A DNA stretch of 64,000 bases from Maribacter luteus (GTDB taxonomy: Bacteria; Bacteroidota; Bacteroidia; Flavobacteriales; Flavobacteriaceae): NCBI RefSeq assembly GCF_009674825.1, contig NZ_WKJH01000003.1:124001-188000 (forward strand), read 5' to 3'. Under the pieces are notes generated by a model, which saw only the letters and a list, made by a program, of their open reading frames with translations, had not been told where the DNA came from and searched no databases. Below are positions 48,746-62,778 of the stretch, piece after piece; the first letter of the stretch is position 1; every line of letters begins with the position of its first letter. Made by a program: the position numbers and the translations under genes.

Positions 48746-49414
48746 TTACAACAACCCCCTGCGATCCCAATTAAAAAAAAGATCACCTAAAACCAGGATT
48801 CTATTCTTAGATAGATTCGCCACTATCTTCAAGAATACCATTGCCGTCAAGAAAGCATCACCGGCCGCCGTATGCCTATCATGTTTTTTCAAATTGAAGA
48901 GTGAACATAAACGATCTAAGGAAAAGTATTCTTCCCTGTCTTTGCAAAAATCTGTTTTCTTAAAGACGATTCCAGTGTCGAGCACTTTATTCTTGAGCTT
49001 TGGAAGCCCCATTCTATCTAATGCTATATTGATCATCGCAATATCAAAAGCTGCATGATGAGCCACCAAAACAGCATTTTCAATATAACCCAAAAAGATT
49101 TTTATCGCCTCTTCTTCGTTTAATTTAGGAACATTTCCCTCTTTTAAGATCCCATGAATACCCACGGTCTCGGGATTGAAAATCTCCTGCTTCACATACA
49201 CTTCCAAAGAATCCCCAACATCTATCTTTAAGTTATTGATAGCAACGGCCCCAATAGACAAAATACGATCTCTTCCAATATCGAGGCCTGTAGTCTCCGT
49301 ATCGAAGACCACAAAACGAACCTTATCCAAATCCGCTGACGTTTTATCTTTGAAATGACGTGCATAATCCTTCCAAAAAACCGGTTTATCCCTATTAAAA
49401 ATATCACTGAACAT
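48746..49414 (-). CDS. DnaQ-like 3'-5' exonuclease (DEDDh)
   Basis: A 222-residue cytoplasmic exonuclease. All DEDDh motifs are visible: FDTETTGLD (Exo I), HHAAFDIAMI (Exo II) and DRHTAAGDAFLTAMVF (Exo III, with the catalytic histidine in DRHT). Proteins of this kind are annotated as DNA polymerase III epsilon-like, but here it is stand-alone. Its start codon abuts the stop codon of the cNMP/CBS gene upstream (TAAATG), so the two are translationally linked. From memory, the same pair is found beside sodium:solute symporter genes of the acetate type in proteobacteria; if so, it belongs functionally with the module downstream. Confidence 0.9.
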   Translation of the reverse strand: MFSDIFNRDKPVFWKDYARHFKDKTSADLDKVRFVVFDTETTGLDIGRDRILSIGAVAINNLKIDVGDSLEVYVKQEIFNPETVGIHGILKEGNVPKLNEEEAIKIFLGYIENAVLVAHHAAFDIAMINIALDRMGLPKLKNKVLDTGIVFKKTDFCKDREEYFSLDRLCSLFNLKKHDRHTAAGDAFLTAMVFLKIVANLSKNRILVLGDLFFNWDRRGLL

Positions 49415-51325
49415 TTACATCATTTGAGCAAGGTTAAAACGTACTTTTATCAATTCCTGAATATCTTTTATAGAACCAAAACATCCTTTCAATTTTAGGC
49501 GATTGGCCTTACTGAGCGACTTTAAATCTATAAACCTTCCTGAATCACCCTTCTTAAGTCCCTCAACCGTCCTAAAACGTAATAGGATCTTGAAAGCGTC
49601 TATACAAGCGTTGTAGACATCCCCATTCTGTGGTTCTAATTCGGCAAGTTTTTTAAACCTTTCAATCGTATTGTTATGATCCTTGATGTTTTTTGAAAGA
49701 ACCAGGAGCCTAGCCGAATCTACCAAAGGCATCATAGCCCTAGCCTTAATATCGAAAAGATCCTTATGCTCTCCGCTGGACTCTACCAAGAACTGTCTGA
49801 AAAAACTTAATGGTGGCGGATTCTTTATGGCATTCAGAGCTAGGAAATTTAAAAATATGGTATAACTATCTATTGAATTAAAAATGCTTTCCGACATCTG
49901 CTCAACTAAAGCCGAATCCCCATAAGCCTTTTCATAATCAAAGAAAATGGTGCAGAGCATTATCTTGTCTTCATCAGGTTTGGTAACCCAATCATTGAAT
50001 TGATTATTCCATTCGGAGAGCGACAAACACCATTTCGGATTACTCGCCATCATCTGCGCAGGACAAAACTCGAATCCTACGATATTCAATTTTACAGTAA
50101 CCAGTTGGGCCAATTTTAGAAAATAGGCCTTGGTTTTCGCCTCATCTTCCAAAGCTACATCTGCATATACTAGTGCATTGTCCTGATCGGTCAACAACAA
50201 TTGCTCGGCCCTACCCTGACTACCCAGTGAAAGCCAAGAAAAAGCTACAGGAGGTTGACCTTGCATTTCATCTATACTTAATGAAATCGCTTTTTGGGTA
50301 ATGGCCTCATTAATCGCGGATACAATTTTTGAAACGAAGCCTATTGGGATATGCTGATCTAGGTACCGCTTCATCAATCCTTGGGATTTCAATCGAATAT
50401 CACGAAGTTTCTCAGCAGTTTCGGCTCGTTTTACCTCCTTGATCAAGAAAGAAGGATTATTACTTTGGGCAACAACGATATCATGTTCGGAAAGCACACC
50501 CACCAACTCGGAATGAGGTGTCCCATTTTTTGTGATACAGAGGTGCGTTATTTTATTACGCAACATTGTTATTTGGGCCTCAGCTATCGATACATTTTCT
50601 GCTATGGTTATAACCGGGTAGCTCATAATACTAGTTACTATATCTGAGATAGCGAATTTACCTGTAGCTATTTTGGTTCGTAGATCCTTATCGGTGATTA
50701 TCCCTATGGGTCTGTTTTCCTTAGTAATGATTATGGAACCCACTTTTTTTGCGGTCATGGTCAGTGCCGCATTCCCGATCTGGGTATTCGGCGGACAAGT
50801 CACTGGTGTTTTTTTGTAGGTAACATTCTGAATAAAAGCCAAGTGGCCAGTTTCCTTATCAAACTCACCTTCGGTGGAATATAATCCTGCTCTATCTTTA
50901 TCCGAATATCGGTCCAAGGTATTGGAAGCAAAGCTCGCCATGATAAACTTATTCGCTTCAATATTGCTGGTTATGAATTCATCCAACAAGTCCGATGATA
51001 TGGCATATACGATACACTCTTCAATAGCTTTGGCACTCAATCTATAATTACTCTGGCGAATTAGCGCCCTTAATCCGAATATATCCCCTTCATCACATTC
51101 ATCAACAAGAACATCCAATCCCCGAAAAATACCCACAGCACCATCTTTTACGACATAGAAAGCATCATGCAAGCTTTCATTTTCCTTGAAAATATAATCC
51201 CCAACTTCATAATAACCGACTTTGACCTGCTCGCAAATGGTCATCAACTGGGCATTATCCAAGGTATTGAAAGGAGGAAAGTCCTTTAAAAAATCGTAAA
51301 TACGTTCTGCAATGGTATTTTTCAC
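49415..51325 (-). CDS. cNMP-binding / CBS / DUF294 nucleotidyltransferase-like protein
   Basis: A 636-residue cytoplasmic signalling protein. In order: a cyclic-nucleotide-binding-like domain (residues about 15-130, GDYIFKENESLHDAFYVVKDG), two CBS domains (about 165-290), a DUF294 putative nucleotidyltransferase domain (about 300-440, with SLGSQGRAEQLLLTDQDNALVY carrying the acidic pair DQD) and a DUF294 C-terminal substrate domain (about 470-610). The architecture resembles GlnD-like PII-uridylyltransferases without the HD/ACT parts and suggests sensing of nucleotides with nucleotidyl transfer to a protein partner. No substrate is known. It forms a coupled pair with the exonuclease and lies directly upstream (divergent) of the acetate module. 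Confidence 0.9.
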   Translation of the reverse strand: MKNTIAERIYDFLKDFPPFNTLDNAQLMTICEQVKVGYYEVGDYIFKENESLHDAFYVVKDGAVGIFRGLDVLVDECDEGDIFGLRALIRQSNYRLSAKAIEECIVYAISSDLLDEFITSNIEANKFIMASFASNTLDRYSDKDRAGLYSTEGEFDKETGHLAFIQNVTYKKTPVTCPPNTQIGNAALTMTAKKVGSIIITKENRPIGIITDKDLRTKIATGKFAISDIVTSIMSYPVITIAENVSIAEAQITMLRNKITHLCITKNGTPHSELVGVLSEHDIVVAQSNNPSFLIKEVKRAETAEKLRDIRLKSQGLMKRYLDQHIPIGFVSKIVSAINEAITQKAISLSIDEMQGQPPVAFSWLSLGSQGRAEQLLLTDQDNALVYADVALEDEAKTKAYFLKLAQLVTVKLNIVGFEFCPAQMMASNPKWCLSLSEWNNQFNDWVTKPDEDKIMLCTIFFDYEKAYGDSALVEQMSESIFNSIDSYTIFLNFLALNAIKNPPPLSFFRQFLVESSGEHKDLFDIKARAMMPLVDSARLLVLSKNIKDHNNTIERFKKLAELEPQNGDVYNACIDAFKILLRFRTVEGLKKGDSGRFIDLKSLSKANRLKLKGCFGSIKDIQELIKVRFNLAQMM

Positions 51326-51478: not shown

Positions 51479-51515
51479 TATATTTTGCTAAATTAATATA
51501 TTTATGCTAATTTTA
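51479..51515 (+). repeat. Tandem TATTTTGCTAA-like repeats upstream of the zinc-ribbon/HTH gene
   Basis: Two similar AT-rich units, TATTTTGCTAAATTAATATA (51481-51500) and TATTTATGCTAATTTTATAT (51499-51518), overlap by 2 bp and place two GCTAA cores 19 bp apart, about two helical turns. A near-match to the -7 element (TATATTTTG, one base too long between TA and TTTG) lies inside the first unit. They could be the binding sites of the encoded DNA-binding protein (autoregulation). Confidence 0.4.
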
Positions 51516-51520
51516 TATAT

Positions 51521-51940
51521 ATGAAAATAAACAGCTGTCCCAATTGCGGATCCGAGAAGTTTGTGAAAAGTGGAATCATTAAAGATAGGCAACGCTACAA
51601 ATGCAAAGCGTGTAATTATTTCTTCTCGGTCAACAAAATAGGCAAAAGCATAGACCAGTATTATGTAAACAAGGCATTGCAATTATATCTAGAAGGTCTG
51701 TCCTATCGAGAAATTGAACGTATTTTAGGTATTTCACATGTAAGTATATTAAACTGGGTTAAGAAATATAACATCAAAAGACCCTATAATCCCGACTACC
51801 ACCCAACCTATAAAATATTGAATGCAGTTGAACTTTCGCACTATTTTCAGGATACCGACAATCTTTCAGGTGCTGGGGTCGTGGTTACCGAACTGGGCGA
51901 CAAGTTCATGCTCATTAAATGGGAGCGATTTAGAAATTAG
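51521..51940 (+). CDS. Zinc-ribbon + HTH DNA-binding protein derived from an IS1/IS1595-type transposase N-terminus
   Basis: A 139-residue protein. Residues 6-31 form an InsA-like zinc ribbon with C6/C9 and C28/C31 (CPNCG and CKAC), residues about 58-82 form a helix-turn-helix (SYREIERILGISHVSILNWV), and the last 50 residues (after RPYNPDYHP) are a small domain of their own with no DDE catalytic motifs. There are no terminal inverted repeats or target duplications that I could find around it. It therefore looks like a domesticated DNA-binding protein rather than a mobile element. It stands alone upstream of the porin-symporter genes, in the 0.7-kb gap between them and the cNMP/CBS gene, so it is a candidate regulator of the acetate module. 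Confidence 0.75.
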   Translation: MKINSCPNCGSEKFVKSGIIKDRQRYKCKACNYFFSVNKIGKSIDQYYVNKALQLYLEGLSYREIERILGISHVSILNWVKKYNIKRPYNPDYHPTYKILNAVELSHYFQDTDNLSGAGVVVTELGDKFMLIKWERFRN

Positions 51941-52048: not shown

Positions 52049-53269
52049 ATGAAGAAACATGCTTTACTCCTGGCAGGGCTATTCTGTACCTTTCAGTTAA
52101 TGCATTCACAAGGGTCACCCGATTATAATGGTGGCCTTAAAGTGAAACTAGATGAAGAAGGCAATAAATACCTTCGTGTCATTTCATGGGCCCAAGTACA
52201 AGGCACATACAACTCCGATGCACCGGACAATACGAGCAGCACGAGTTTCAACCTCAGAAGGGCCCGTGTTCTGATGTTCGCCCAGATCAACAAAAAATTC
52301 ATGATCCTTACCCATTTCGGGCTTAACAGCCTAAATAGCGGAACTTTGTCACCGACAGGAAAAGGCGAAGGCTCCCAACTGTTCTTCCATGATGTTTGGG
52401 CACAATACAATGTTGGTGAGGACCATGTTGTTGGTGGTGGTTTACATTATTTCAATGGGATATCAAGGTTGAACAATCAGAGTACCTTGAACTTTATGAC
52501 GCTGGACAATAATCGCCAGTCGTGGTCAACCTTAGGCCTTACCGATCAATTTGCCAGGCATATTGGTGTTTTCGCCAAAGGTAAATTCGGCAAGTTACAA
52601 TACAGGGTCGCCATAAATGATGCGATTACCAACGGTCTCGACACCCGCACGCCCGAAGCAAACGGTGCCGCGGTTTACGCTGGCAAAAGATTACTGGGTT
52701 CAAAAGACTCCGGTAAAGCATATGCCGGTTATTTTGATTTTAATTTCCTGGACCAAGAATCCAATTTCCTTCCTTTTAAGGTAGGTTCGTACTTAGGTAC
52801 CAAAAAGGTATTTAACATTGGAGCCGGATTTTTTCTACATCCTGGCGGATCGGTAATCGCGGATGCCGTTGGAAATCTGGAAAAAGAAGATGTTAGCATA
52901 TTCGGAATCGATGCCTTTTACGACACCCCATTAGGGGATGACGGTAGCGCACTGACGGCTTACGCCACATACCAGAGCAACGACTATGGCAGGGATTACC
53001 TATTTAGCGCTTATGGAACGGGAAGCATGCTGTACTCGCACTTAGGCTACGTTTTTGCCGGTGATAAAACAAAAACCAGATATCAACCTTATGTGTCATT
53101 TGCTTCTAACAGCTATGACGCCACTGACGATAACAGAAATGTTTTTGGTATTGGGGCAAACGCCTATTTAAACGGTCATAACTCCAAATTAACACTGGAA
53201 TACAAAAACCAAAAGTTTGGTGATACTGACACAGGGGCCATTACCCTTCAAGCAATGATTTACCTATAA
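52049..53269 (+). CDS. Outer-membrane porin (phosphate-porin-like beta barrel)
   Basis: A 406-residue exported protein: signal peptide MKKHALLLAGLFCTFQLMHSQ (cleavage near residue 20), followed by an OprO/OprP-like beta-barrel rich in aromatic strands (LRVISWAQVQGTYNS, FNLRRARVLMFAQINKKFMILTHFG, VGGGLHYFNGISR) and a C-terminal strand KLTLEYKNQKFGDTDTGAITLQAMIYL. It is 14 bp upstream of the DUF4212 gene and the first gene of the symporter operon, so it is presumably the outer-membrane entry port for the acid taken up by the symporter. Substrate inferred from context. Confidence 0.85.
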   Translation: MKKHALLLAGLFCTFQLMHSQGSPDYNGGLKVKLDEEGNKYLRVISWAQVQGTYNSDAPDNTSSTSFNLRRARVLMFAQINKKFMILTHFGLNSLNSGTLSPTGKGEGSQLFFHDVWAQYNVGEDHVVGGGLHYFNGISRLNNQSTLNFMTLDNNRQSWSTLGLTDQFARHIGVFAKGKFGKLQYRVAINDAITNGLDTRTPEANGAAVYAGKRLLGSKDSGKAYAGYFDFNFLDQESNFLPFKVGSYLGTKKVFNIGAGFFLHPGGSVIADAVGNLEKEDVSIFGIDAFYDTPLGDDGSALTAYATYQSNDYGRDYLFSAYGTGSMLYSHLGYVFAGDKTKTRYQPYVSFASNSYDATDDNRNVFGIGANAYLNGHNSKLTLEYKNQKFGDTDTGAITLQAMIYL

Positions 53270-53282
53270 AAAACCAACAACT

Positions 53283-53543
53283 ATGAGTGAAAAACAAAAA
53301 AAGGCCACCGCCTATTGGAAAGAAAACCTAAAGTATCTGATCATACTGCTTTCTATATGGTTCGCGGTATCGTACGGCGCAGGAATACTATTCAGGGAAG
53401 CCCTAAATGAGTTTCGTTTAGGCGGATTCAAACTGGGATTCTGGTTTGCACAACAAGGTTCTATCTATGTCTTCGTGATACTGATTTTCGTTTACGTAAG
53501 ATTGATGAACAAACTAGATAAAAAATACGGTTACGACGAGTAA
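53283..53543 (+). CDS. DUF4212 small subunit of sodium:solute symporter
   Basis: An 86-residue inner-membrane protein with two transmembrane helices (LIILLSIWFAVSYGAGILF and IYVFVILIFVYVRLM) and the DUF4212 signature (TAYWKENLKYLIILLSIWFAVSYG, FRLGGFKLGFWFAQQGS). Such proteins are the small partner of VC_2705-type sodium:solute symporters and are always found just upstream of them. The gene is 13 bp after the porin gene and 29 bp before the large subunit. Confidence 0.92.
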   Translation: MSEKQKKATAYWKENLKYLIILLSIWFAVSYGAGILFREALNEFRLGGFKLGFWFAQQGSIYVFVILIFVYVRLMNKLDKKYGYDE

Positions 53544-53572: not shown

Positions 53573-55348
53573 ATGAGTGTTCAATTATGGACTTGGATTT
53601 TAGTTGGGATTACCTTCGCCCTGTATTTCGGAATTGCCATATGGGCAAGGGCCGGATCTACTAAAGAATTCTATGTGGCCGGTGGTGGGGTTTCCCCATT
53701 GGCAAATGGTATGGCTACGGCAGCCGACTGGATGAGTGCCGCATCGTTCATCTCTATGGCCGGTATCATTTCCTTTGCTGGTTATGATGGATCGGTTTAC
53801 CTAATGGGATGGACCGGAGGATACGTGCTTCTTGCCCTACTCCTTGCACCCTATCTTCGAAAATTCGGAAAATTTACCGTACCTGATTTTATCGGTGATC
53901 GATATTATTCCAATACGGCCCGTACAGTAGCTGTTATTTGTGCATTGATCGTTTCGTTTACATACGTTGCCGGTCAGATGCGGGGTGTGGGAATCGTATT
54001 TTCACAATTCTTACAGGTCGATATTAATATCGGAGTAATCATAGGTATGGCCGTAGTTCTTGTTTTTGCTTTCTTAGGTGGAATGAAAGGGATTACCTAT
54101 ACTCAGGTAGCACAATACTGCGTGCTGATTTTTGCCTTTATGGTACCGGCATTTTTCATCTCTATGCAAATGACGGGTAACCCAATTCCTCAACTGGGAA
54201 TGGGTGGCAAGGTCGAAGGAGGTACTTTTCTACTGGATAAGTTGGATACCCTTCATACCCAATTAGGATTTAACGAATACACCAGTGGGACAAAATCAAC
54301 CTGGGACGTTTTTGCCATTACACTTGCCCTAATGGCAGGTACCGCAGGATTACCACATGTTATCGTACGTTTCTTTACCGTACCAAAAGTTAAAGATGCA
54401 CGTAAATCGGCCGGATTGGCTTTACTATTCATCGCCATACTTTATACAACGGCACCGGCCATTGCGGTTTTTGCCAGAACAAATTTAATCGAAACGGTAG
54501 ATAATAAATCTTATTCAGAAATTCCCCAATGGTTCAAAAATTGGGAAGATACAGGTCTGATCGCTTGGGCTGATAAGAATAATGACGGAAAAATACAATA
54601 TGTTGCCGGTAGTGCCCTAGAAGGTAAAAAACCTGCCTTCACAGATGCCCGTGGAGCCAATGGCGAACGTCTTATTTCAAATGCCAACAGTTCTTCCAAT
54701 GAACTTTATGTAGATAGGGACATCATGGTATTGGCCAATCCTGAAATAGCCAATTTACCAAACTGGGTAATAGCCCTGGTGGCCGCAGGTGGCTTGGCCG
54801 CAGCTTTATCAACTGCTGCAGGATTACTTCTTGTAATATCAACATCGATTTCGCATGATTTGATCAAAAAACAGATTAACCCGAACATCTCTGAAAAAGG
54901 GGAGTTAATGGCGGCCCGTATCGCAATTTTGGTTGCTATCGTTATCGCAGGTCTTTTCGGTATTTATCCGCCCGGCTTTGTCGCAGCGGTTGTCGCCTTG
55001 GCATTTGGTCTCGCGGCAGCCTCATTCTTCCCCGCCATTATTTTGGGGATTTTCGATAAAAGGATGAACAGCAAAGGGGCTATTGCCGGTATGATCGTTG
55101 GTATAACATTAATGCTGTTCTATATGATCCGGTACAAAACGGGATTGATCGGTGTCATGGATGCAAGACCCGCAAGTGAATGGTGGTTTGGAACCTCTCC
55201 AGAAGGATTTGGAACCATTGCCATGATCATCAATGTAATCGTTTCAGTGGTGGTCTCAAGAATGACCCCTCCACCACCGGAAAATGTACAGGAAATGGTT
55301 GAAAGTATTAGAATACCTAGTGGAGCTGGTGATGCAAGTTCCCATTAA
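53573..55348 (+). CDS. Sodium:solute symporter (VC_2705/ActP-like, acetate-type)
   Basis: A 591-residue transporter of the SSS family with about 13 transmembrane helices. The VC_2705-type features are the start FYVAGGGVSPLANGMATAADWMSAASFISMAG, GTAGLPHVIVRFFTVP, a hydrophilic insertion at about residues 310-395 and ALSTAAGLLLVISTSISHDL, which contains the conserved helix around the sodium site. Family members carry acetate, pyruvate or other short-chain carboxylates with sodium. The partner subunit precedes it, the acyl-CoA synthetases lie about 3.5 kb downstream, and a terminator follows at 55369, so porin, DUF4212 and this gene form one unit. Confidence 0.92.
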   Translation: MSVQLWTWILVGITFALYFGIAIWARAGSTKEFYVAGGGVSPLANGMATAADWMSAASFISMAGIISFAGYDGSVYLMGWTGGYVLLALLLAPYLRKFGKFTVPDFIGDRYYSNTARTVAVICALIVSFTYVAGQMRGVGIVFSQFLQVDINIGVIIGMAVVLVFAFLGGMKGITYTQVAQYCVLIFAFMVPAFFISMQMTGNPIPQLGMGGKVEGGTFLLDKLDTLHTQLGFNEYTSGTKSTWDVFAITLALMAGTAGLPHVIVRFFTVPKVKDARKSAGLALLFIAILYTTAPAIAVFARTNLIETVDNKSYSEIPQWFKNWEDTGLIAWADKNNDGKIQYVAGSALEGKKPAFTDARGANGERLISNANSSSNELYVDRDIMVLANPEIANLPNWVIALVAAGGLAAALSTAAGLLLVISTSISHDLIKKQINPNISEKGELMAARIAILVAIVIAGLFGIYPPGFVAAVVALAFGLAAASFFPAIILGIFDKRMNSKGAIAGMIVGITLMLFYMIRYKTGLIGVMDARPASEWWFGTSPEGFGTIAMIINVIVSVVVSRMTPPPPENVQEMVESIRIPSGAGDASSH

Positions 55349-55368
55349 AATAGTTAGTTGATTATTAT

Positions 55369-55404
55369 AAAAAGCGGTACTTCATTCTGGAGTACTGCTT
55401 TTTT
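55369..55404 (+). terminator. Intrinsic terminator after the symporter gene
   Basis: AAAAAGCGGTACT (55369-55381) and AGTACTGCTTTTTT (55391-55404) pair (one G-T mismatch) around a 9-nt loop and end in a T-run. It separates the porin-symporter transcript from the sensor-kinase operon. Confidence 0.8.
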
Positions 55405-55432
55405 CATATATTTATTATTACAGCCCCATAAA

Positions 55433-55627
55433 ATGAAAAAACGCCACGAACAGAAATTGGTCATTGTATCCATAGCCCTTTTATTGGTATTGAACATTCC
55501 TATAGTCTTGGTTTTTAATTTAGACGGCGCCATTTTTGGCATACCCTTATTCTATTTTTATGTTTTTACGGTCTGGATTCTCTCCATCATCATATCTTAT
55601 ATAGTTCTAAAAAGATATTATGAATAA
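55433..55627 (+). CDS. Small DUF3311-like membrane protein coupled to the sensor kinase
   Basis: A 64-residue protein from ATG 55433 (a longer frame from 55358 runs through the terminator and is rejected). It has two transmembrane helices (LVIVSIALLLVLNIPIVLVFN and YFYVFTVWILSIIISYIVL) separated by the motif AIFGIPLFYFY, resembling DUF3311, a small partner of sodium:solute symporters. Its last 8 bp overlap the start of the SLC-type histidine kinase, so synthesis of the two is coupled. This suggests that the transporter-derived sensor has kept a small subunit, as the true symporter next door has DUF4212. The function is otherwise unknown. Confidence 0.75.
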   Translation: MKKRHEQKLVIVSIALLLVLNIPIVLVFNLDGAIFGIPLFYFYVFTVWILSIIISYIVLKRYYE

Positions 55628-58310
55628 CTATTTCTTGATCATTATCATCTTGTGTTACTTGGCAGTACTTTTCTACATTGCCTTTATTGCTGAAAAAAAC
55701 GCTAAAAGTAAATGGGTCAACAACCCTTATATCTACACCTTGTCCCTTGCAGTGTATTGCTCCGCCTGGACGTACTATGGCAGTATTGGCACGGCGGCAA
55801 GTTCTGGCGTAGGCTTTTTACCGATATATCTGGGTCCGGCCATAGCAGTACCTTTATGGATCATCGTACTTCGTAAAATCATTCGGATTTCCAAACAACA
55901 TAAAGTATCATCCATTGCGGATTTTATTTCCCTTAGATATGCGAACAATCGCTTTTTGGGAGCTTTAATAACCGTTTTATGTATTACGGCCACTGTTCCA
56001 TATATTTCATTGCAATTGAAGGCCGTAGCAGAATCATTTGCAATAATGACAAATGAAACCCATGGCATTACTGCAAGTATTTTTGACGACTCTACCTTTT
56101 ACATTGCTTTGATATTGGCGATTTTCGCCACATTTTTTGGCACTCAGGCAACAGATGCTTCAGAAAAACATAAGGGAATCGTAACTACAGTAGCTTTTGA
56201 ATCGCTCTTAAAACTTACTTTCTTTTTAATTATTGGTGCATACGTCACCTATTATCTTTTCGATGGCACACAAGACATATACGACAAGGTTTCAATAACA
56301 CCCGATTTCAACAATTTAGTTAAACTTTCAGGCTTGGAGGGAGGTATCGATTGGGGGTTTATGATATTGCTATCCTTTACTGCGATATTTTTATTACCTA
56401 GACAATTTCAGGTTTCCGTATTGGAAAACACTAGGGAAAAACACTTAAAAAAAGCCATTTGGTTGTTCCCTCTCTATCTATTGCTCTTTAACGTATTCGT
56501 GATCTTTATTGCTTGGGCCGGTAAATTGACTTTGGAAGAAACAGCCAATCCGGAATACTATGCACTATTACTCCCATTGAACAGTAATCATACTTTTTTG
56601 GCTTTATTGGTATTTCTCGGGGGGTTATCGGCAGTAATTTCCATGGTTGTGGTATCTACCTTGGCTTTATCAAAAATGATTAGTAACAACCTGATTATCC
56701 CATATGGTTTCTTGGAAAAATTTATCAAGGCAAAACCGGAAGAAAATGCCATCTACATCAAAAACATAAGACGCATATCTATTTTTACGGTAATCATACT
56801 TGCCTATTTTTTTTACAATAACTTTTCCATAGAACTTTCTTTGTATTCCATCGGGTTGATTTCTTTCGTTATCGTAGCCCAATTAGCGCCTTCCTTTTTC
56901 ATTGGCCTCTATTGGAACCGCGGTTCTTCCTTAGCTTCGATATTGGGTATAATCCTAGGCTTTTTAATTTCTGCATATACGTTGATCCTGCCATTTACGA
57001 TAGAGGCATTTACGGGTAGTAGTGAATTTACGGAATTTGGGTTATTCGGAATCTCCGCATTAAAGCCCTATGCCCTATTCGGCATTGATTTCCTGAGTCC
57101 GCCCGCCCATGCTTTTTTCTGGAGTTTAACGGCCAATATCTTATGTTACCTGATTATTTCATTGGCTTTCAAAGGACATTACAGGGAACGTAATTACGCT
57201 GAAATGTTCGTCGATAGCAAGAACTATTCCTCGCTTCAGGATAGCGCCTTGGTTTGGAAAGGGGAAGCCTATGTGGCCGACATAAAAAACGTATTGACCA
57301 AATTTTTAGGGGAAGCAAGGACCCAACGTGCCCTACAGATCTTCTTTAGAAAATATGATATCCCTAGCGATACACAAATGGCCGATGCCCGTTTGATCAA
57401 TTTTTCAGAGAAATTATTGACCGGAAGCATTGGTGGGGCATCTGCAAAAATCTTGATTGCAGGGGTAGTAAAGGAACAAGAGATAAGTCTTCCCGAGGTT
57501 TTGAAAATCCTGGAAGAATCCAAAGAAACCATTATCAGTAACAAAGCCTTACAGGATAAATCTTCAGAGCTAACTCTTTTGACCGCAAAACTCAAGGATG
57601 CCAATGAGGAACTGATTGTAAAAGACAAACAAAAAGACGAGTTTTTGGATACGGTGGCGCATGAATTGAAAACGCCAATTACAGGAATCAGGGCCGCCTC
57701 TGAACTCCTGATGGATGATGACGACGAAATGCCGGTTGAAATGAGACAGACTTTCCTGAAAAATATCGTTGATGACTCCGATCGCTTATCTCGATTAATA
57801 AATAATATATTGGATTTTGAAAAACTCTCCACGGGCAGGGAACAATTGAATTTAAAGAAACGCAACATTCAGGATACCCTTAAAAAAGCAATCGGTAATA
57901 CACAGCATATCGCAGCGAAAAAGGAAATTGAAATAGTAAACAAAAACCGTTTTCATTTTGAACTTCCTTACGATGAGGATCGTATTTTGCAGGTCCTGAC
58001 CAATTTGCTTTCGAATTCAATCAAATTCTGCGAACCAAAAAAAGGAGTAATAACGTTGGACTATAAATTAGGGAATGATTGTATCGAAGTTTTTGTAAAG
58101 GACAACGGGAAAGGTATACCCGATGAGGATATAAACTATATATTCGATAAATTCTATCAATCTAAAAACCAAAATACGATTAAACCCCAAGGTAGTGGTT
58201 TGGGGCTGGCCATAAGCAAACAAATCATTGAAAAACACCATGGCCGCATTTGGGTAGAAAAAGGAAGTAAAGTTGGAACAACTTTTGGATTTAAGCTACC
58301 TTTTAATTAA
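55620..58310 (+). CDS. SLC-STAC histidine kinase (CrbS/CbrA-like short-chain-acid sensor)
   Basis: An 896-residue membrane sensor kinase. Residues about 1-515 form a sodium:solute-symporter domain with about 13 helices (NNRFLGALITVLCITATVPYISLQLKA). Residues about 545-640 form the STAC domain that links transporter-type sensors to kinases (ADIKNVLTKFLGEARTQRALQ, LINFSEKLLTGSIGGASAKIL). A short coiled coil follows (about 643-672), then HisKA with the phospho-histidine H681 in VAHELKTPITG, and the ATPase domain (LTNLLSNSIKFC, DNGKGIPDEDI, GSGLGLAISKQIIEKHHG). No PAS domain is present. Proteobacterial CrbS has the same transporter-kinase plan and controls acs. It is followed 19 bp later by the response regulator. 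Confidence 0.93.
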   Translation: MNNYFLIIIILCYLAVLFYIAFIAEKNAKSKWVNNPYIYTLSLAVYCSAWTYYGSIGTAASSGVGFLPIYLGPAIAVPLWIIVLRKIIRISKQHKVSSIADFISLRYANNRFLGALITVLCITATVPYISLQLKAVAESFAIMTNETHGITASIFDDSTFYIALILAIFATFFGTQATDASEKHKGIVTTVAFESLLKLTFFLIIGAYVTYYLFDGTQDIYDKVSITPDFNNLVKLSGLEGGIDWGFMILLSFTAIFLLPRQFQVSVLENTREKHLKKAIWLFPLYLLLFNVFVIFIAWAGKLTLEETANPEYYALLLPLNSNHTFLALLVFLGGLSAVISMVVVSTLALSKMISNNLIIPYGFLEKFIKAKPEENAIYIKNIRRISIFTVIILAYFFYNNFSIELSLYSIGLISFVIVAQLAPSFFIGLYWNRGSSLASILGIILGFLISAYTLILPFTIEAFTGSSEFTEFGLFGISALKPYALFGIDFLSPPAHAFFWSLTANILCYLIISLAFKGHYRERNYAEMFVDSKNYSSLQDSALVWKGEAYVADIKNVLTKFLGEARTQRALQIFFRKYDIPSDTQMADARLINFSEKLLTGSIGGASAKILIAGVVKEQEISLPEVLKILEESKETIISNKALQDKSSELTLLTAKLKDANEELIVKDKQKDEFLDTVAHELKTPITGIRAASELLMDDDDEMPVEMRQTFLKNIVDDSDRLSRLINNILDFEKLSTGREQLNLKKRNIQDTLKKAIGNTQHIAAKKEIEIVNKNRFHFELPYDEDRILQVLTNLLSNSIKFCEPKKGVITLDYKLGNDCIEVFVKDNGKGIPDEDINYIFDKFYQSKNQNTIKPQGSGLGLAISKQIIEKHHGRIWVEKGSKVGTTFGFKLPFN

Positions 58311-58329
58311 ATTGTAAGCACTATTGGGA

Positions 58330-58692
58330 ATGAAAAGAATATTGATAGTCGATGACGAGCCGAATATTGTGATGACTTTGGAATACGCCTTCAAGAAAAA
58401 AGATTTTGAGGTTTATATCGCAAGAGACGGTGGGGAGGCAATGCAAATACTTAAAAACAATATTCCCGATGTGGTATTACTAGATATAATGATGCCCAAT
58501 GTAGATGGTTACCAAACATTGGATCATATTAAAAAAAGTGAAGCTTTAAAGAACACAAAAGTTGTGTTCCTTACCGCTAAAAATAAAATTTCAGATATTG
58601 AAAAAGGATTGAAACTTGGGGCGGATAAGTATTTGACCAAGCCTTTTTCAATTAAAAAGATAGTTTCAGAAATACTAGAACTTCTTAATTAA
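58330..58692 (+). CDS. Receiver-only response regulator (CheY-like)
   Basis: A 120-residue single receiver domain, started at ATG 58330 (TTG 58324 would add two residues). The acidic pocket is D8/D9 (IVDDEPN), the phosphorylated aspartate is D52 (VVLLDIMMPN), and the lysine in TKPFSIKKIV follows the GADKYLTKP loop. There is no DNA-binding or enzymatic output domain. It is encoded 19 bp after the SLC-STAC kinase, so it is the obvious cognate partner, yet CrbR-type partners in proteobacteria carry a LuxR-type HTH. How its phosphorylation is read out is unknown; interaction with a separate DNA-binding protein is a possibility. Confidence 0.93.
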   Translation: MKRILIVDDEPNIVMTLEYAFKKKDFEVYIARDGGEAMQILKNNIPDVVLLDIMMPNVDGYQTLDHIKKSEALKNTKVVFLTAKNKISDIEKGLKLGADKYLTKPFSIKKIVSEILELLN

Positions 58693-58743: not shown

Positions 58744-58968
58744 ATGAAATTACGTCTTAATCCTTTGACATCGGATATTCTTATCTGTGTCTATGCCGTT
58801 GTATCCCTTTATCTACGTTTTAAATTTGAAAGCGAAACGGCAATCAGTCCTATGAACTCCATAGTCATGGGAATTTGTTTCGTGGTTATTCTTTGGGTAC
58901 TTATTAAACTTAAGGTACTTAACCCCAATTGGTTTGGACTTTTCAATGCTAAAAAAACCAAGTCATGA
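58744..58968 (+). CDS. Small two-helix membrane protein, unknown function
   Basis: A 74-residue protein with two hydrophobic segments (DILICVYAVVSLYLRF and MNSIVMGICFVVILWVLIKLKVL) and a basic tail ending KKTKS. I do not recognise a family. The last four bases overlap the start codon of the PrpE-like synthetase (ATGA), so it is translationally coupled to it and presumably serves the same acyl-CoA module. It could be a membrane tether or an accessory of the transporter; neither is shown by the sequence. Confidence 0.6.
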   Translation: MKLRLNPLTSDILICVYAVVSLYLRFKFESETAISPMNSIVMGICFVVILWVLIKLKVLNPNWFGLFNAKKTKS

Positions 58969-60857
58969 AGTATCAGGAATTCTACAAAAAAAGTATTGAA
59001 AATCCGGAACGTTTTTGGGAAAAACAAGCCCATCAGCTGCAATGGTACCATACCCCCAAAAATATACTTTCCAATGACGACAATGGTTATCCCCAATGGT
59101 TCGTCGACGGAAAATTAAACCTCAGCCATTTATGCATAGACAAACATATTGAAGATGGTTTTGGAAGGCAAAATGCCATAATTTATGATTCGCCGGTAAC
59201 CAACACCAAAGAAATCATCACCTATAATCGCCTGCAAAAAGAAGTTTCCAAACTAGCTGGGGCAATAAAGGATTTAGGACTAAAAAAAGGGGATACCGCC
59301 ATCATATATATGCCCATGATTCCACAGGCACTATATGCCATGCTTGCCTGTACACGAATAGGTGTTATCCATTCCGTGGTATTTGGAGGCTTTGCCCCAA
59401 ACGAGTTGGCCATAAGAATAGATGATTGTACGCCCAAGGTTATTATCACGGCATCTAGCGGTATTGAGATAGACCGAATAATACCCTATAAACCTTATGT
59501 TGACAAAGCTATTGAATTGGCTTCCCATAAACCCGAAAAGGTAATCCTCTTTCAAAGACATTTAGGTGCCGCTACCCCCGCAAAACCATATGATATAGAT
59601 TATTTGGAAGCGATTAAAAATGCAAGTCCCGCCGAGCCCATTGAGGTGGAATCGAACCATCCTTCCTATATATTGTACACATCCGGCACAACAGGGACAC
59701 CTAAAGGGATAATCCGTGATACGGGTGGCTATGCAACAGCCTTGAAATTCTCAATGAAGTATATCTATGGGGTAGATCCAGGTGATGTTTATTGGGCAGC
59801 CAGTGATGTTGGTTGGGTGGTTGGCCACAGCTATATTGTTTACGGCCCATTATTAAATAGAAACACTACAATTCTTTTCGAAGGAAAACCTATAAGAACG
59901 CCCGATGCCTCAACTTTTTGGAGGGTGATCAGTGAGCATAAGGTAAAAGTGATGTTTACCGCCCCAACAGCAATAAGAGCAATCAAGAAAGAAGACCCTG
60001 AAGGAAAAATGATCAACGATTATGATCTATCTAGCCTTAAATATCAGTTTTTGGCCGGTGAACGTTGTGATGTTTCTACCTTAAAATGGACAGAGGACAA
60101 ATTAAAGGTCCCGGTAATCGACCATTGGTGGCAGACCGAATCGGGCTGGCCCATGTTGGCAAATATGGTCGGGGTTGAATTGGCTAAGGTAAAACCGGGA
60201 TCGGCAACCTTTCCGGTATGTGGTTATGATATTCAGATATTGAACGAGGACGGAGAAGTTCTAGGACCAAATTCAGAAGGTTATGTTGTGGTAAAACTGC
60301 CACTGCCCCCTGGTAATTTGAGAAACATATGGGGCAATCCCCAAAGATTCCAAGCTGGCTATCTAGAGCGTTTCCCCGGGTATTACTTTTCGGGTGACGG
60401 AGGTTATAAGGATGAGGAAGGTTATGTATTCATTACCGGGCGGGTCGATGACGTTATCAACGTTGCGGGACATAGGCTCTCAACCGCCGAAATGGAAGAA
60501 ATAGTCGCTTCACATTCCCAAGTGGCCGAGTGCGCGGTAATAGGGATCAACGATGACCTTAAAGGTCAAATACCATTGGCCTTGGCAGTTACCAAATCTG
60601 GAAACGAAATTGCCGAATCGGTCATCCAAAGTGAAATTATAAAGGAAATCAGAAGTCAGATTGGGCCCGTAGCATCCTTAAAACAGGTTATCCTGGTAAG
60701 TAGATTGCCCAAAACACGATCAGGGAAAATCCTACGTAAATTATTACGAGGAATCGCAGACAATGAGGATTATAGCGTGCCTTCGACGATTGATGACCCT
60801 CTAATCATAGATGAAATAGCAAAAGCATATAGAACACATAAAATAGGATCCAACTAA
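58965..60857 (+). CDS. PrpE/ACSS3-like propionyl/acyl-CoA synthetase
   Basis: A 630-residue AMP-forming acyl-CoA synthetase. Adenylation motifs: YILYTSGTTGTPKGI (phosphate loop), YWAASDVGWVVGHSYIVYGPL, WWQTESGWP and SGDGGYKDEEGYVFITGRVDDVI, continuing into NVAGHRLSTAEMEE; the reactive lysine is in KTRSGKILRKLL. GHRLSTAEMEE and WWQTESGWP are the features of the PrpE/ACSS3 branch, active on propionate and other short-chain acids, rather than of Acs. It overlaps the small membrane protein gene by 4 bp and is followed 13 bp later by Acs, so two synthetases of different preference are co-expressed. Confidence 0.88.
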   Translation: MKYQEFYKKSIENPERFWEKQAHQLQWYHTPKNILSNDDNGYPQWFVDGKLNLSHLCIDKHIEDGFGRQNAIIYDSPVTNTKEIITYNRLQKEVSKLAGAIKDLGLKKGDTAIIYMPMIPQALYAMLACTRIGVIHSVVFGGFAPNELAIRIDDCTPKVIITASSGIEIDRIIPYKPYVDKAIELASHKPEKVILFQRHLGAATPAKPYDIDYLEAIKNASPAEPIEVESNHPSYILYTSGTTGTPKGIIRDTGGYATALKFSMKYIYGVDPGDVYWAASDVGWVVGHSYIVYGPLLNRNTTILFEGKPIRTPDASTFWRVISEHKVKVMFTAPTAIRAIKKEDPEGKMINDYDLSSLKYQFLAGERCDVSTLKWTEDKLKVPVIDHWWQTESGWPMLANMVGVELAKVKPGSATFPVCGYDIQILNEDGEVLGPNSEGYVVVKLPLPPGNLRNIWGNPQRFQAGYLERFPGYYFSGDGGYKDEEGYVFITGRVDDVINVAGHRLSTAEMEEIVASHSQVAECAVIGINDDLKGQIPLALAVTKSGNEIAESVIQSEIIKEIRSQIGPVASLKQVILVSRLPKTRSGKILRKLLRGIADNEDYSVPSTIDDPLIIDEIAKAYRTHKIGSN

Positions 60858-60870
60858 AAAACGAATAATA

Positions 60871-62778
60871 ATGAGTAATTATCACATTAAACATCTAGAA
60901 GAATATTATCAGGTATATAGAAAATCTGTGCGTAACCCCGAGGGTTTTTGGGAAGAAATCGCAGAAGAACATTTTATTTGGCGAAAGAAATGGGACAATG
61001 TTCTAGAGTGGGATTTCTCTAAACCGGAAGTAAAATGGTTCCAAGGCGCACAGCTCAATATTACCGAAAACTGTATAGACCGGCATTTACCTACACGAAG
61101 AAACAAAACCGCCATCCTTTTTGAACCTAACGACCCAAAGGAAGAAGCCTTGCATATTACTTACGGGCAATTATTTGAGAAGGTTTGCAAAATGGCCAAT
61201 GTTTTGAAAGCCAATGGCGTTAAAAAAGGTGACCGTGTTTGTATATATCTTCCGATGATACCAGAACTGACCTATGCCGTTTTGGCCTGTGCAAGGATCG
61301 GGGCAATACACTCGGTGGTATTTGCAGGTTTTTCATCGAATGCACTAGCTACGCGAATCAATGATTCCGATTGTAAAATGGTGATTACATCCGATGGTTC
61401 ATTTAGAGGAAGTAAATCAATCGACCTAAAAGGAATCGTGGATAAGGCTTTGGAAGATTGTCCTGGTGTTAATACCGTCTTGGTCGCCAAGCGGACCAAA
61501 AGTGATATTGAGATGGTAGAGGGTAGGGATAAATGGTTAGCTCCCTTAATGGCAGAGGCCTCTGCAGATTGCGATGCTGAAACCATGAATGCCGAAGACC
61601 CCCTTTTTATTCTCTATACCTCTGGATCCACAGGCAAACCCAAGGGTATGGTACATACTTGTGGTGGTTATATGGTTTATACGGCATATACGTTCAAAAA
61701 CATTTTTCAATATCGTGAAGAGGATGTATACTGGTGTACTGCTGACATTGGTTGGATTACCGGCCATTCCTATATCGTTTATGGTCCATTAGCCAATGGG
61801 GCTACTTCGATAATGTTCGAAGGGGTCCCCTCCTATCCCGATTTTGGTCGTTTTTGGGAAGTGGTGGAAAAACATAAAGTAAATCAGTTTTACACCGCAC
61901 CTACGGCTATTAGGGCCCTGGCCAAAGAGAATTTGGATTATTTGGAGAAATATGATCTTTCCTCATTAAAGGTTCTAGGTTCTGTAGGAGAGCCGATAAA
62001 TGAAGAAGCATGGCATTGGTACAACAATAATGTAGGTAAGAAAAAGAGTCCGATCGTAGATACTTGGTGGCAAACCGAGACGGGTGGAATCATGATTTCC
62101 CCTATACCTTATGTTACACCGACAACACCAACATTCGCCACATTACCCTTTATAGGAATACAACCGGCCTTAATGGATGAGGAAGGCAAAGAAATTAAAG
62201 GTAACCAAGTAGAAGGCCGCCTATGTATTAAATTCCCCTGGCCATCGATTGCACGAACTATTTGGGGCAATCATGAACGTTATCGGGATACTTACTTTTC
62301 GGCTTACAAAGACATGTATTTTACGGGTGATGGCGCCAATAGGGATGCCGTTGGCTATTATAGGATTACAGGTCGGGTAGATGATGTGATCATCGTTTCT
62401 GGCCATAATTTAGGTACCGCACCTATAGAAGACGCGATAAACGAGCACCAAGCAGTTGCTGAATCTGCCATTGTAGGTTTCCCACATGATGTTAAAGGAA
62501 ACGCACTTTATGGTTATGTTATCTTGAAAGAAACAGGGGAAAGTCGTGACAGGGATAACGTTCGTAATGAAATAAACCAACAGATTACCGAACTTATAGG
62601 CCCCATTGCCAAATTGGATAAAATTCAATTCGTATCAGGATTGCCCAAAACCCGAAGTGGTAAAATTATGAGAAGAATTTTACGTAAAATCGCGAGTAAC
62701 GACACTTCCAACCTTGGGGATACCAGTACCCTATTGAATCCTGAAATTGTAAAGGAAATCATGGATAACGTTTTATAA
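60871..62778 (+). CDS. acs: Acetate--CoA ligase
   Basis: A 635-residue AMP-forming acetyl-CoA synthetase that converts acetate, ATP and CoA to acetyl-CoA. Motifs: FILYTSGSTGKPKGM, WCTADIGWITGHSYIVYGPL, TWWQTETGGIMISP, YFTGDGANRDAVGYYRITGRVDDVI and IVSGHNLGTAPIEDA, ending with the acetylatable lysine in KTRSGKIMRRIL. Length is typical of Acs. It is the last gene of the operon, ending before a terminator at 62808, and sits downstream of the symporter and CrbS-like sensor, which together suggest acetate is the main substrate of the module. Confidence 0.95.
   Translation: MSNYHIKHLEEYYQVYRKSVRNPEGFWEEIAEEHFIWRKKWDNVLEWDFSKPEVKWFQGAQLNITENCIDRHLPTRRNKTAILFEPNDPKEEALHITYGQLFEKVCKMANVLKANGVKKGDRVCIYLPMIPELTYAVLACARIGAIHSVVFAGFSSNALATRINDSDCKMVITSDGSFRGSKSIDLKGIVDKALEDCPGVNTVLVAKRTKSDIEMVEGRDKWLAPLMAEASADCDAETMNAEDPLFILYTSGSTGKPKGMVHTCGGYMVYTAYTFKNIFQYREEDVYWCTADIGWITGHSYIVYGPLANGATSIMFEGVPSYPDFGRFWEVVEKHKVNQFYTAPTAIRALAKENLDYLEKYDLSSLKVLGSVGEPINEEAWHWYNNNVGKKKSPIVDTWWQTETGGIMISPIPYVTPTTPTFATLPFIGIQPALMDEEGKEIKGNQVEGRLCIKFPWPSIARTIWGNHERYRDTYFSAYKDMYFTGDGANRDAVGYYRITGRVDDVIIVSGHNLGTAPIEDAINEHQAVAESAIVGFPHDVKGNALYGYVILKETGESRDRDNVRNEINQQITELIGPIAKLDKIQFVSGLPKTRSGKIMRRILRKIASNDTSNLGDTSTLLNPEIVKEIMDNVL

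Follow-up and report, generated by a model that had tools for sequence, protein, structure and literature searches.

Regulators of mobile elements that have been recruited by their hosts are an already known kind of protein. The TldR proteins, for example, are derived from TnpB. They are described as RNA-guided transcription factors (PMC13418256), and the Ner/SfsB case is presented as recruitment of a mobile-element repressor by the host for carbon metabolism (PMC8987985). For the E. coli insertion sequence IS1 the excerpted description states that the zinc finger and HTH of InsA bind both inverted repeats, and that a promoter with which the left inverted repeat overlaps is under InsA repression (PMC12428005). 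Among systems that sense carboxylates, CrbR of the CrbS/CrbR (MxtR/ErdR) pair is described in the excerpt as a LuxR-family regulator (PMC5715377), and the SLC5/STAC kinase of the Sinorhizobium RpuS/RpuR pair is described, again in an excerpt, as controlling a carboxylate transporter (of a pyruvate system) through a direct repeat (PMC9100948). In the portions of the open-licence PMC literature that we covered, no report of a circuit of the type presented below was recognised.

The window analysed here (the whole 64,000-nucleotide stretch of Maribacter luteus DNA) codes for a 139-residue protein, for which we use the working name REG and whose gene occupies 51521-51940 on the plus strand (Table 1). 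An earlier note on this DNA had read it as a protein with a C6/C9/C28/C31 zinc ribbon and an HTH, lacking a nuclease domain and placed directly upstream of porin, DUF4212 and symporter genes, and profile searches bore out each of these points. The zinc ribbon passed the NCBIfam model IS1_IS1595_Zn (NF050000; 40.1 bits, cut-off 28) and the HTH the Pfam model HTH_28 (25.5 bits, cut-off 25), with Pfam Zn_ribbon_IS1595 staying under its cut-off (23.5 bits against 25.4); the four cysteines are invariant across 28 aligned REGs. The IS1 transposase model NF033558 aligns with residues 6-122 through its positions 1-120 of 199 with 78.7 bits, where the cut-off is 100. No DDE domain follows REG, the next ORF on the same strand being that of the porin. 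REG is single-copy in its own genome, where the other matches reach only E-values of 0.06 and 0.17, and there is one match per genome across the 54 genomes compared below. Its AlphaFold model (mean pLDDT 85.6) displays the HTH and a beta-alpha-beta-beta tail. Foldseek searches with this model returned no match with an E-value of 0.001 or lower, and VIA-align gave no clear full-length match, its best alignment (Z 6.8) covering the HTH alone and a few weak rows covering the tail (KCTD5, Z about 5); a Pfam search with the tail alone recovered no family.

Table 1. Features of the REG locus, with window coordinates, strand and supporting evidence
Feature	Coordinates	Strand	Evidence
Operator-like unit 1 (TGCTAAATTAATATAT)	51486..51501	+	PWM score 24.2; tandem recognised in 48/54 loci
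Operator-like unit 2 (TGCTAATTTTATATAT), last base adjoins ATG	51505..51520	+	PWM score 20.0; 19-bp period from unit 1
REG, probable domesticated InsA-like zinc-ribbon/HTH protein, 139 aa	51521..51940	+	ORF, profiles, alignments
Zinc ribbon (residues 6-31; C6, C9, C28, C31)	51536..51613	+	Family profiles, REG alignment
HTH (residues 46-82)	51656..51766	+	Pfam, predicted structure
C-terminal beta-alpha-beta-beta tail (residues 89-139), homologue of InsA 0-frame tail of some related IS1 elements	51785..51937	+	AlphaFold, hhalign, shuffle test
Inverted operator-like unit (rc TGGTAATTAAGTATAG), directly after REG stop codon	51941..51956	-	Strict matrix 10.1; relaxed 16.1
Porin, probable target gene	52049..53269	+	NCBIfam porin_ExtI 64.1 bits, under cut-off 150; linkage
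DUF4212 symporter small subunit	53283..53543	+	Pfam/NCBIfam, 122 bits
VC_2705-type sodium/solute symporter	53573..55348	+	Pfam/NCBIfam, 869 bits
Small membrane protein, 89 aa, overlaps kinase start	55358..55627	+	Conserved position; DUF3311 very weak (E 0.67)
SLC5-type transporter-like sensor histidine kinase	55620..58310	+	Pfam HisKA/HATPase_c; PDB 10ed chain A match
Receiver-only response regulator, 122 aa, no output domain	58324..58692	+	Pfam Response_reg residues 6-117
Propionate/acetate--CoA ligase	58965..60857	+	Acetate--CoA ligase subfamily 681.7 bits, cut-off 657
Acetyl-CoA synthetase	60871..62778	+	ORF + likeness to neighbour

Plasmid-borne relatives of REG recovered by tblastn are mainly IS1 transposases (among 20 of the 42 records). 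Profile-profile comparison (hhalign) of 28 REGs with 5 InsA-like proteins aligned residues 5-134, a collinear HTH included, with an E-value of 2.5e-38, and the 28 REGs group together, separately from the 11 IS rows (support 96/96, subject to a long-branch warning). The single-copy REG belongs to a clade that is related to the IS1 repressor InsA, itself a zinc-ribbon/HTH protein. The earlier note had credited REG with a C-terminal domain of its own, a claim that has to be withdrawn, as residues 89-134 align with the un-frameshifted InsA tail of some related IS1 elements. Such 0-frame products measure 144 aa in Methanomethylovorans (two copies), 148 in Methylobacter, 150 in one Tenacibaculum copy and about 114 in G481, the second Tenacibaculum copy being a single 219-aa frame. 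For four REGs tested against the Methanomethylovorans and Methylobacter tails only 0 to 5 of 500 shuffles were as good; against the Tenacibaculum tail 72 to 500 of 500 were, and no likeness was detectable there. Three of the IS elements carry an A-run (7 or 8 A) near the frame change; in the REG gene no run of A reaches 5. Opposite the IS motif ELDEMHTY, REG reads NAVELSHY in the alignment, so that the Asp of the motif, which we take to be catalytic, is replaced. Separately, a same-family genome without a REG match (G322, locus L234) has a 133-aa truncated IS1-like ORF of a different IS1 subgroup.

Directly before the REG ATG lies a conserved tandem, (TGCTAAATTANTATAT)x2, with a 19 bp period, which by eye is the sole conserved part of the upstream DNA, at or near the ATG. 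In 48 of the 54 loci the 35-base consensus of this tandem reaches a score of 28 or higher out of 35, as against a maximum of 27 in 1060 shuffled upstream regions; the matrix was built without six loci (L118, L119, L136, L138, L139, L140), which are weak, differently spaced or at a contig end. A degenerate 35-base pattern run over the GTDB species collection gave at least 118 matches. All 118 of those listed fall at REG loci, 115 of them at -6 to +21 bp before REG and 3 just downstream; the 80 record titles among these matches are all Bacteroidota by name, and 51 of the 53 listed tandem loci with at least 4.5 kb downstream encode the kinase. In the three exceptions in position (L289, L306 and L363, the first two titled Runella) the tandem just downstream of REG perhaps lies at the porin promoter. 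Scanning 33 other loci (20 REG-less DUF4212 loci, 12 kinase-only loci and one second contig of a REG genome) with the unit matrix yielded 6 single-unit matches over 473,529 bases, with no locus having more than one; the highest score, 17.7, was in the REG-less locus L161. In the genome of the window itself the unit pattern has 49 matches against 55 for the reversed control, so no wider regulon is seen. We also considered the tandem as coding sequence. It is in frame in many loci, but the window and others have an in-frame stop in unit 1, and in L091, L127, L129 and L130 it lies 15-33 bp further upstream, and this candidate was rejected.

An inverted unit follows the REG stop codon. On the minus strand the relaxed score there is 6 or more in 25 of 53 loci (L138 being left out of this count), with 2.8% for shuffles and only 1/53 on the plus strand; the best inverted unit sits at -1 or 0 bp from the stop in 21/53 and at +20 to +23 in 4/53, and it is missing from most loci beyond the near relatives of the window. 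Elsewhere in the module, 4 of the 54 loci have a strong unit 66-87 bp ahead of a gene for an acyl-CoA synthetase (ACS in L120, L121 and L123, PrpE-like in L124), and within the window the matrix finds nothing of note before DUF4212, the kinase or PrpE.

Direct units before REG and an inverted unit after it reproduce the layout of an element's inward-facing ends. The earlier note had seen no insertion-element ends here; this has to be revised, since the units on both sides of REG resemble the terminal inverted repeats of related IS1 elements. We scored the ends of 18 IS1 entries, in which the Tenacibaculum pair and the Methanomethylovorans pair are copies of one element each. The Tenacibaculum ends are GCATTGCTAATTTAATATAG and GCATTGCTAATTCAATAAAG; the left one scores 19.6 on the REG matrix and the right one just 1.4, against a background of 20,000 30-mers with 99th percentile -7.0, 99.9th 0.8 and maximum 9.5. 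The theoretical P for a score of 19.6 is 3.5e-6 per 30-mer, and when the matrix is built from 10 other loci, of which 9 belong to other families, the left end still scores 19.9. It is this match to a terminal inverted repeat of the Tenacibaculum IS1 that makes element-like ends visible at REG. The next best ends belong to Methylobacter (6.4), Microcystis (3.1), G481 (3.0) and Cylindrospermopsis (-2.4), with the remainder below -10. Among the 18 entries, L225-L230, L379, L381 and L384 are weak controls because they show no convincing repeat (14-17 of 24). The Methanomethylovorans element, which has the most similar tail, has ends at about -11, under the 99th percentile of the background, and the best-fitting end and the most similar tail accordingly belong to different elements. 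Further IS elements of the nearest subgroup turned up in 0/179 and 0/178 genomes, searches whose absence result is weak as they had no positive control, and in one partial viral contig. A single ancestral insertion explains both REG and its sites; alternatively, the sites may have been gained later around a retained specificity.

Orthologues were collected from 299 genomes of the same family and 296 genomes of the phylum, the 54 loci comprising 33 from the family sample and 21 from further genomes of the phylum sample. IS1-like matches (L141, L142 and genomes G311, G470, G481) were left out of the REG counts; in the phylum sample 26 genomes had a match and 3 were dropped as IS1-like, leaving 23 with REG. 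In the family sample REG occurs in 33/299 genomes, invariably adjoining DUF4212-symporter genes (33/33), and across several Bacteroidota families an SLC5-type kinase lies downstream of REG in 50/54 loci; this is not the picture of scattered orthologues or of neighbouring DDE genes that the earlier note had named as speaking against a host role. Adjacency to DUF4212, which the earlier note had proposed as a check, is complete in the family sample; among the 21 loci added from the phylum sample, 17 have no visible DUF4212 (L138, one of them, is on a short contig). Four of these 17 were read (L120, L122, L129, L134) and have in its place a permease of about 500 aa, MFS-type by eye. Of the other downstream genes, the receiver is present in 49 of the 54 loci and the porin in 44; DUF4212 and the symporter each occur in 37. 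Separate locus counts for PrpE and Acs were not used, since the homology of the two makes these counts overlap. DUF4212 itself is found in 193 of the 299 family-sample genomes, the 33 REG genomes among them, leaving 160 without REG, and 20 REG-less DUF4212 loci had neither kinase nor receiver. In 18 of these 20 (L143-L162) an AnmK-like gene lies upstream of DUF4212, at 0.4 kb or less in 15, with exonuclease and DUF294 genes in between in L143 and L144 and a porin in between in L161.

REG and the kinase, in turn, largely share their distribution: in the family sample REG is in 33 genomes, the kinase in 32 and both in 31 (Fisher p 1e-38), and in the phylum sample the figures are 23, 32 and 21 of 296 (p 4e-22), p values that are not clean probabilities since the genomes are related. 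The kinase occurs without REG in G270 and in 11 phylum-sample genomes outside the class of the window, always at 45% kinase identity or less, and REG without the kinase in G064, G280, G456 and G577 (4/54 loci). The linkage and co-occurrence counts indicate that REG tracks the sensor kinase, not the transporter. The dN/dS of REG ranges from 0 to 0.065 in the 8 usable of nine same-genus pairs tried, with dS above 1.5, and hence saturated, in five of the eight; at the level of these comparisons REG is shown to be under apparent purifying selection.

Over residues 6-586 the kinase matches chain A of PDB 10ed ('histidine kinase'; E 4e-70), presumably an SLC5-type kinase. The Pfam SSF model gave no match on the kinase of the window. 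Receivers also accompany such kinases where REG is lacking: 11 of the 12 REG-less kinase-only loci fetched (all but L190) have a receiver match, 7 of those 11 as a receiver-length ORF of 122-164 aa, and a Paracoccus plasmid carries a receiver-only regulator with an SLC5-type kinase and no REG. This implies that the regulator has, or had, another output, and it weakens the idea that REG originated as a replacement for a missing DNA-binding part of the regulator. In several kinase-only loci (L183-L193; three translated) a PAS/kinase-like or exonuclease-fused gene directly follows the receiver gene and is a possible alternative receiver output. On the Paracoccus plasmid, the kinase and receiver-only regulator genes share a gene run with flanking genes annotated as cNMP/CBS/DUF294 and exonuclease kinds. 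In the window two ORFs, one for a cNMP/CBS/DUF294 protein and one exonuclease-like, are divergent from REG (48746-51325, minus strand), and the Paracoccus arrangement raises the possibility that this pair belongs to an ancestral signalling module. The 89-aa membrane protein is retained in most REG loci, and DUF3311 is also present in the RpuS/R gene context according to the excerpt of that report (PMC9100948). The first CoA ligase of the window scores 756.8 bits with the propionate--CoA ligase model, under its cut-off of 955, and from the neighbouring acyl-CoA synthetase we infer that the module responds to acetate.

The orthology, synteny, purifying selection, conserved repeats and IS-end likeness shown by these genome comparisons lead us to consider it probable that REG is a domesticated InsA-type protein without a DDE nuclease, which binds units resembling IS1 ends, autoregulates and controls an acetate/propionate module. 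The earlier proposal of a domesticated regulator of an acetate module thereby gains support from linkage, dN/dS, the operator-like tandem and the likeness to IS1 ends. REG would probably bind the TGCTAAWTTANTATAT units, the two direct copies before its start codon and the inverted copy between its stop codon and the porin gene, and would in this way autoregulate and control the downstream genes of the porin, the transporter and acetate or propionate activation. By analogy with InsA it would repress, and autorepression is the simplest guess because the layout matches that of E. coli InsA autorepression. An acetate-type signal might then pass from the SLC5-type kinase to the receiver-only response regulator and on to REG, whose C-terminal tail the receiver would possibly contact; the partnership of receiver and REG is one that we infer, and REG could be the DNA-binding output of the receiver-only regulator. 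More tentatively, and with the odds against it, the whole may form a three-part pathway in which kinase and receiver-only regulator act on an InsA repressor seated on doubled transposon-end relics, protein and operators having come from one ancient IS1 insertion.

How far REG depends on the kinase is where a competing account is strongest. REG may regulate the module independently of kinase and receiver, for instance as an InsA-like autorepressor that sets basal expression, an account that we hold to be credible if somewhat improbable. It fits with the four kinase-less REG genomes, with receiver-only regulators elsewhere that do without REG and with InsA itself, an autorepressor in the excerpted description (PMC12428005), but co-occurrence is far tighter with the kinase than with the transporter. 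Moreover, in the kinase-less REGs of G280, G577 and G456 the tail has diverged beyond what the DNA-binding domain predicts (mean z -5.8, -2.9 and -1.6), in three cases that are among the most divergent REGs and with pairs that are not independent. The sign of the control is a distinct question: we think it unlikely that REG is an activator that sits on the tandem and inverted units and recruits RNA polymerase. CrbR of the comparable proteobacterial acetate system is described as a LuxR-family activator in the excerpt (PMC5715377), and the unit upstream of acyl-CoA synthetase genes in four loci would suit such a role, yet the tandem ends a few bases from the REG start in most loci, which is more typical of an autorepressor, and InsA represses.

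The position of the tandem beside the start codon would likewise suit a promoter element, or a signal in the 5'-UTR, that a factor other than REG reads. We regard this as quite improbable, given that every listed pattern match lies at a REG locus and that the element with the matching end encodes an InsA-like protein similar in its recognition region. That REG is a decaying or recent IS1 fragment without host function, as its homology to InsA and its end-like flanks might suggest, is hardly tenable, being already contradicted by intact frames across many genera, the low dN/dS in all usable pairs, fixed synteny, the conserved operator-like tandem and the single match in each of 54 genomes. A live or dying IS copy was rejected on similar grounds, namely the lack of DDE, the single copy and purifying selection.

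The probable domesticated InsA-type regulator can thus be set against the systems described at the outset. With InsA it shares the zinc ribbon and HTH, homology over residues 5-134 and the presence, next to its start, of repeats resembling terminal inverted repeats; it differs in having neither an InsB frame nor a DDE domain after it, no A-run of 5 or more, a replaced Asp in the ELDEMHTY motif, a single copy in a fixed place beside acetate genes and doubled end units. Unlike the mobile IS1 element it lacks multiple copies and scattered positions and does not reach the cut-off for a complete transposase. As in CrbS/CrbR, a sensor kinase in which an SLC5-type transporter-like domain is fused to HisKA/HATPase_c stands beside genes of acetate uptake and activation; the regulator of the window, in contrast, is receiver-only, with 122 aa, and not of the LuxR family, and the InsA-like REG may supply DNA binding. 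In the carboxylate sensing of Bacteroidota, REG is a candidate for the output through which a receiver-only regulator acts. The RpuS/RpuR system, as far as the excerpt describes it, resembles the REG module in its SLC5-type kinase, carboxylate transporter and direct repeat, whereas RpuR is of the LuxR family and the excerpt does not mention an IS-derived protein (PMC9100948). Were the tentative three-part pathway true, a self-limiting transposon circuit would have been converted whole into a Bacteroidota carboxylate switch. REG provides a specific path, open to experiment, by which the self-control of a transposon could turn into control of host metabolism. TldR likewise represents a transposon protein turned bacterial regulator, but it is an unrelated, RNA-guided protein, whereas REG looks like an ordinary DNA-binding protein. 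The regulator in the Ner/SfsB case is of phage origin with an Xre-type HTH, not IS1, and the accessible part of that report does not describe an element-end operator (PMC8987985); in the case of REG the repressor and the end-like operators, the two halves of the circuit, both seem to have been kept, and each finds a match in present-day relatives of the element.
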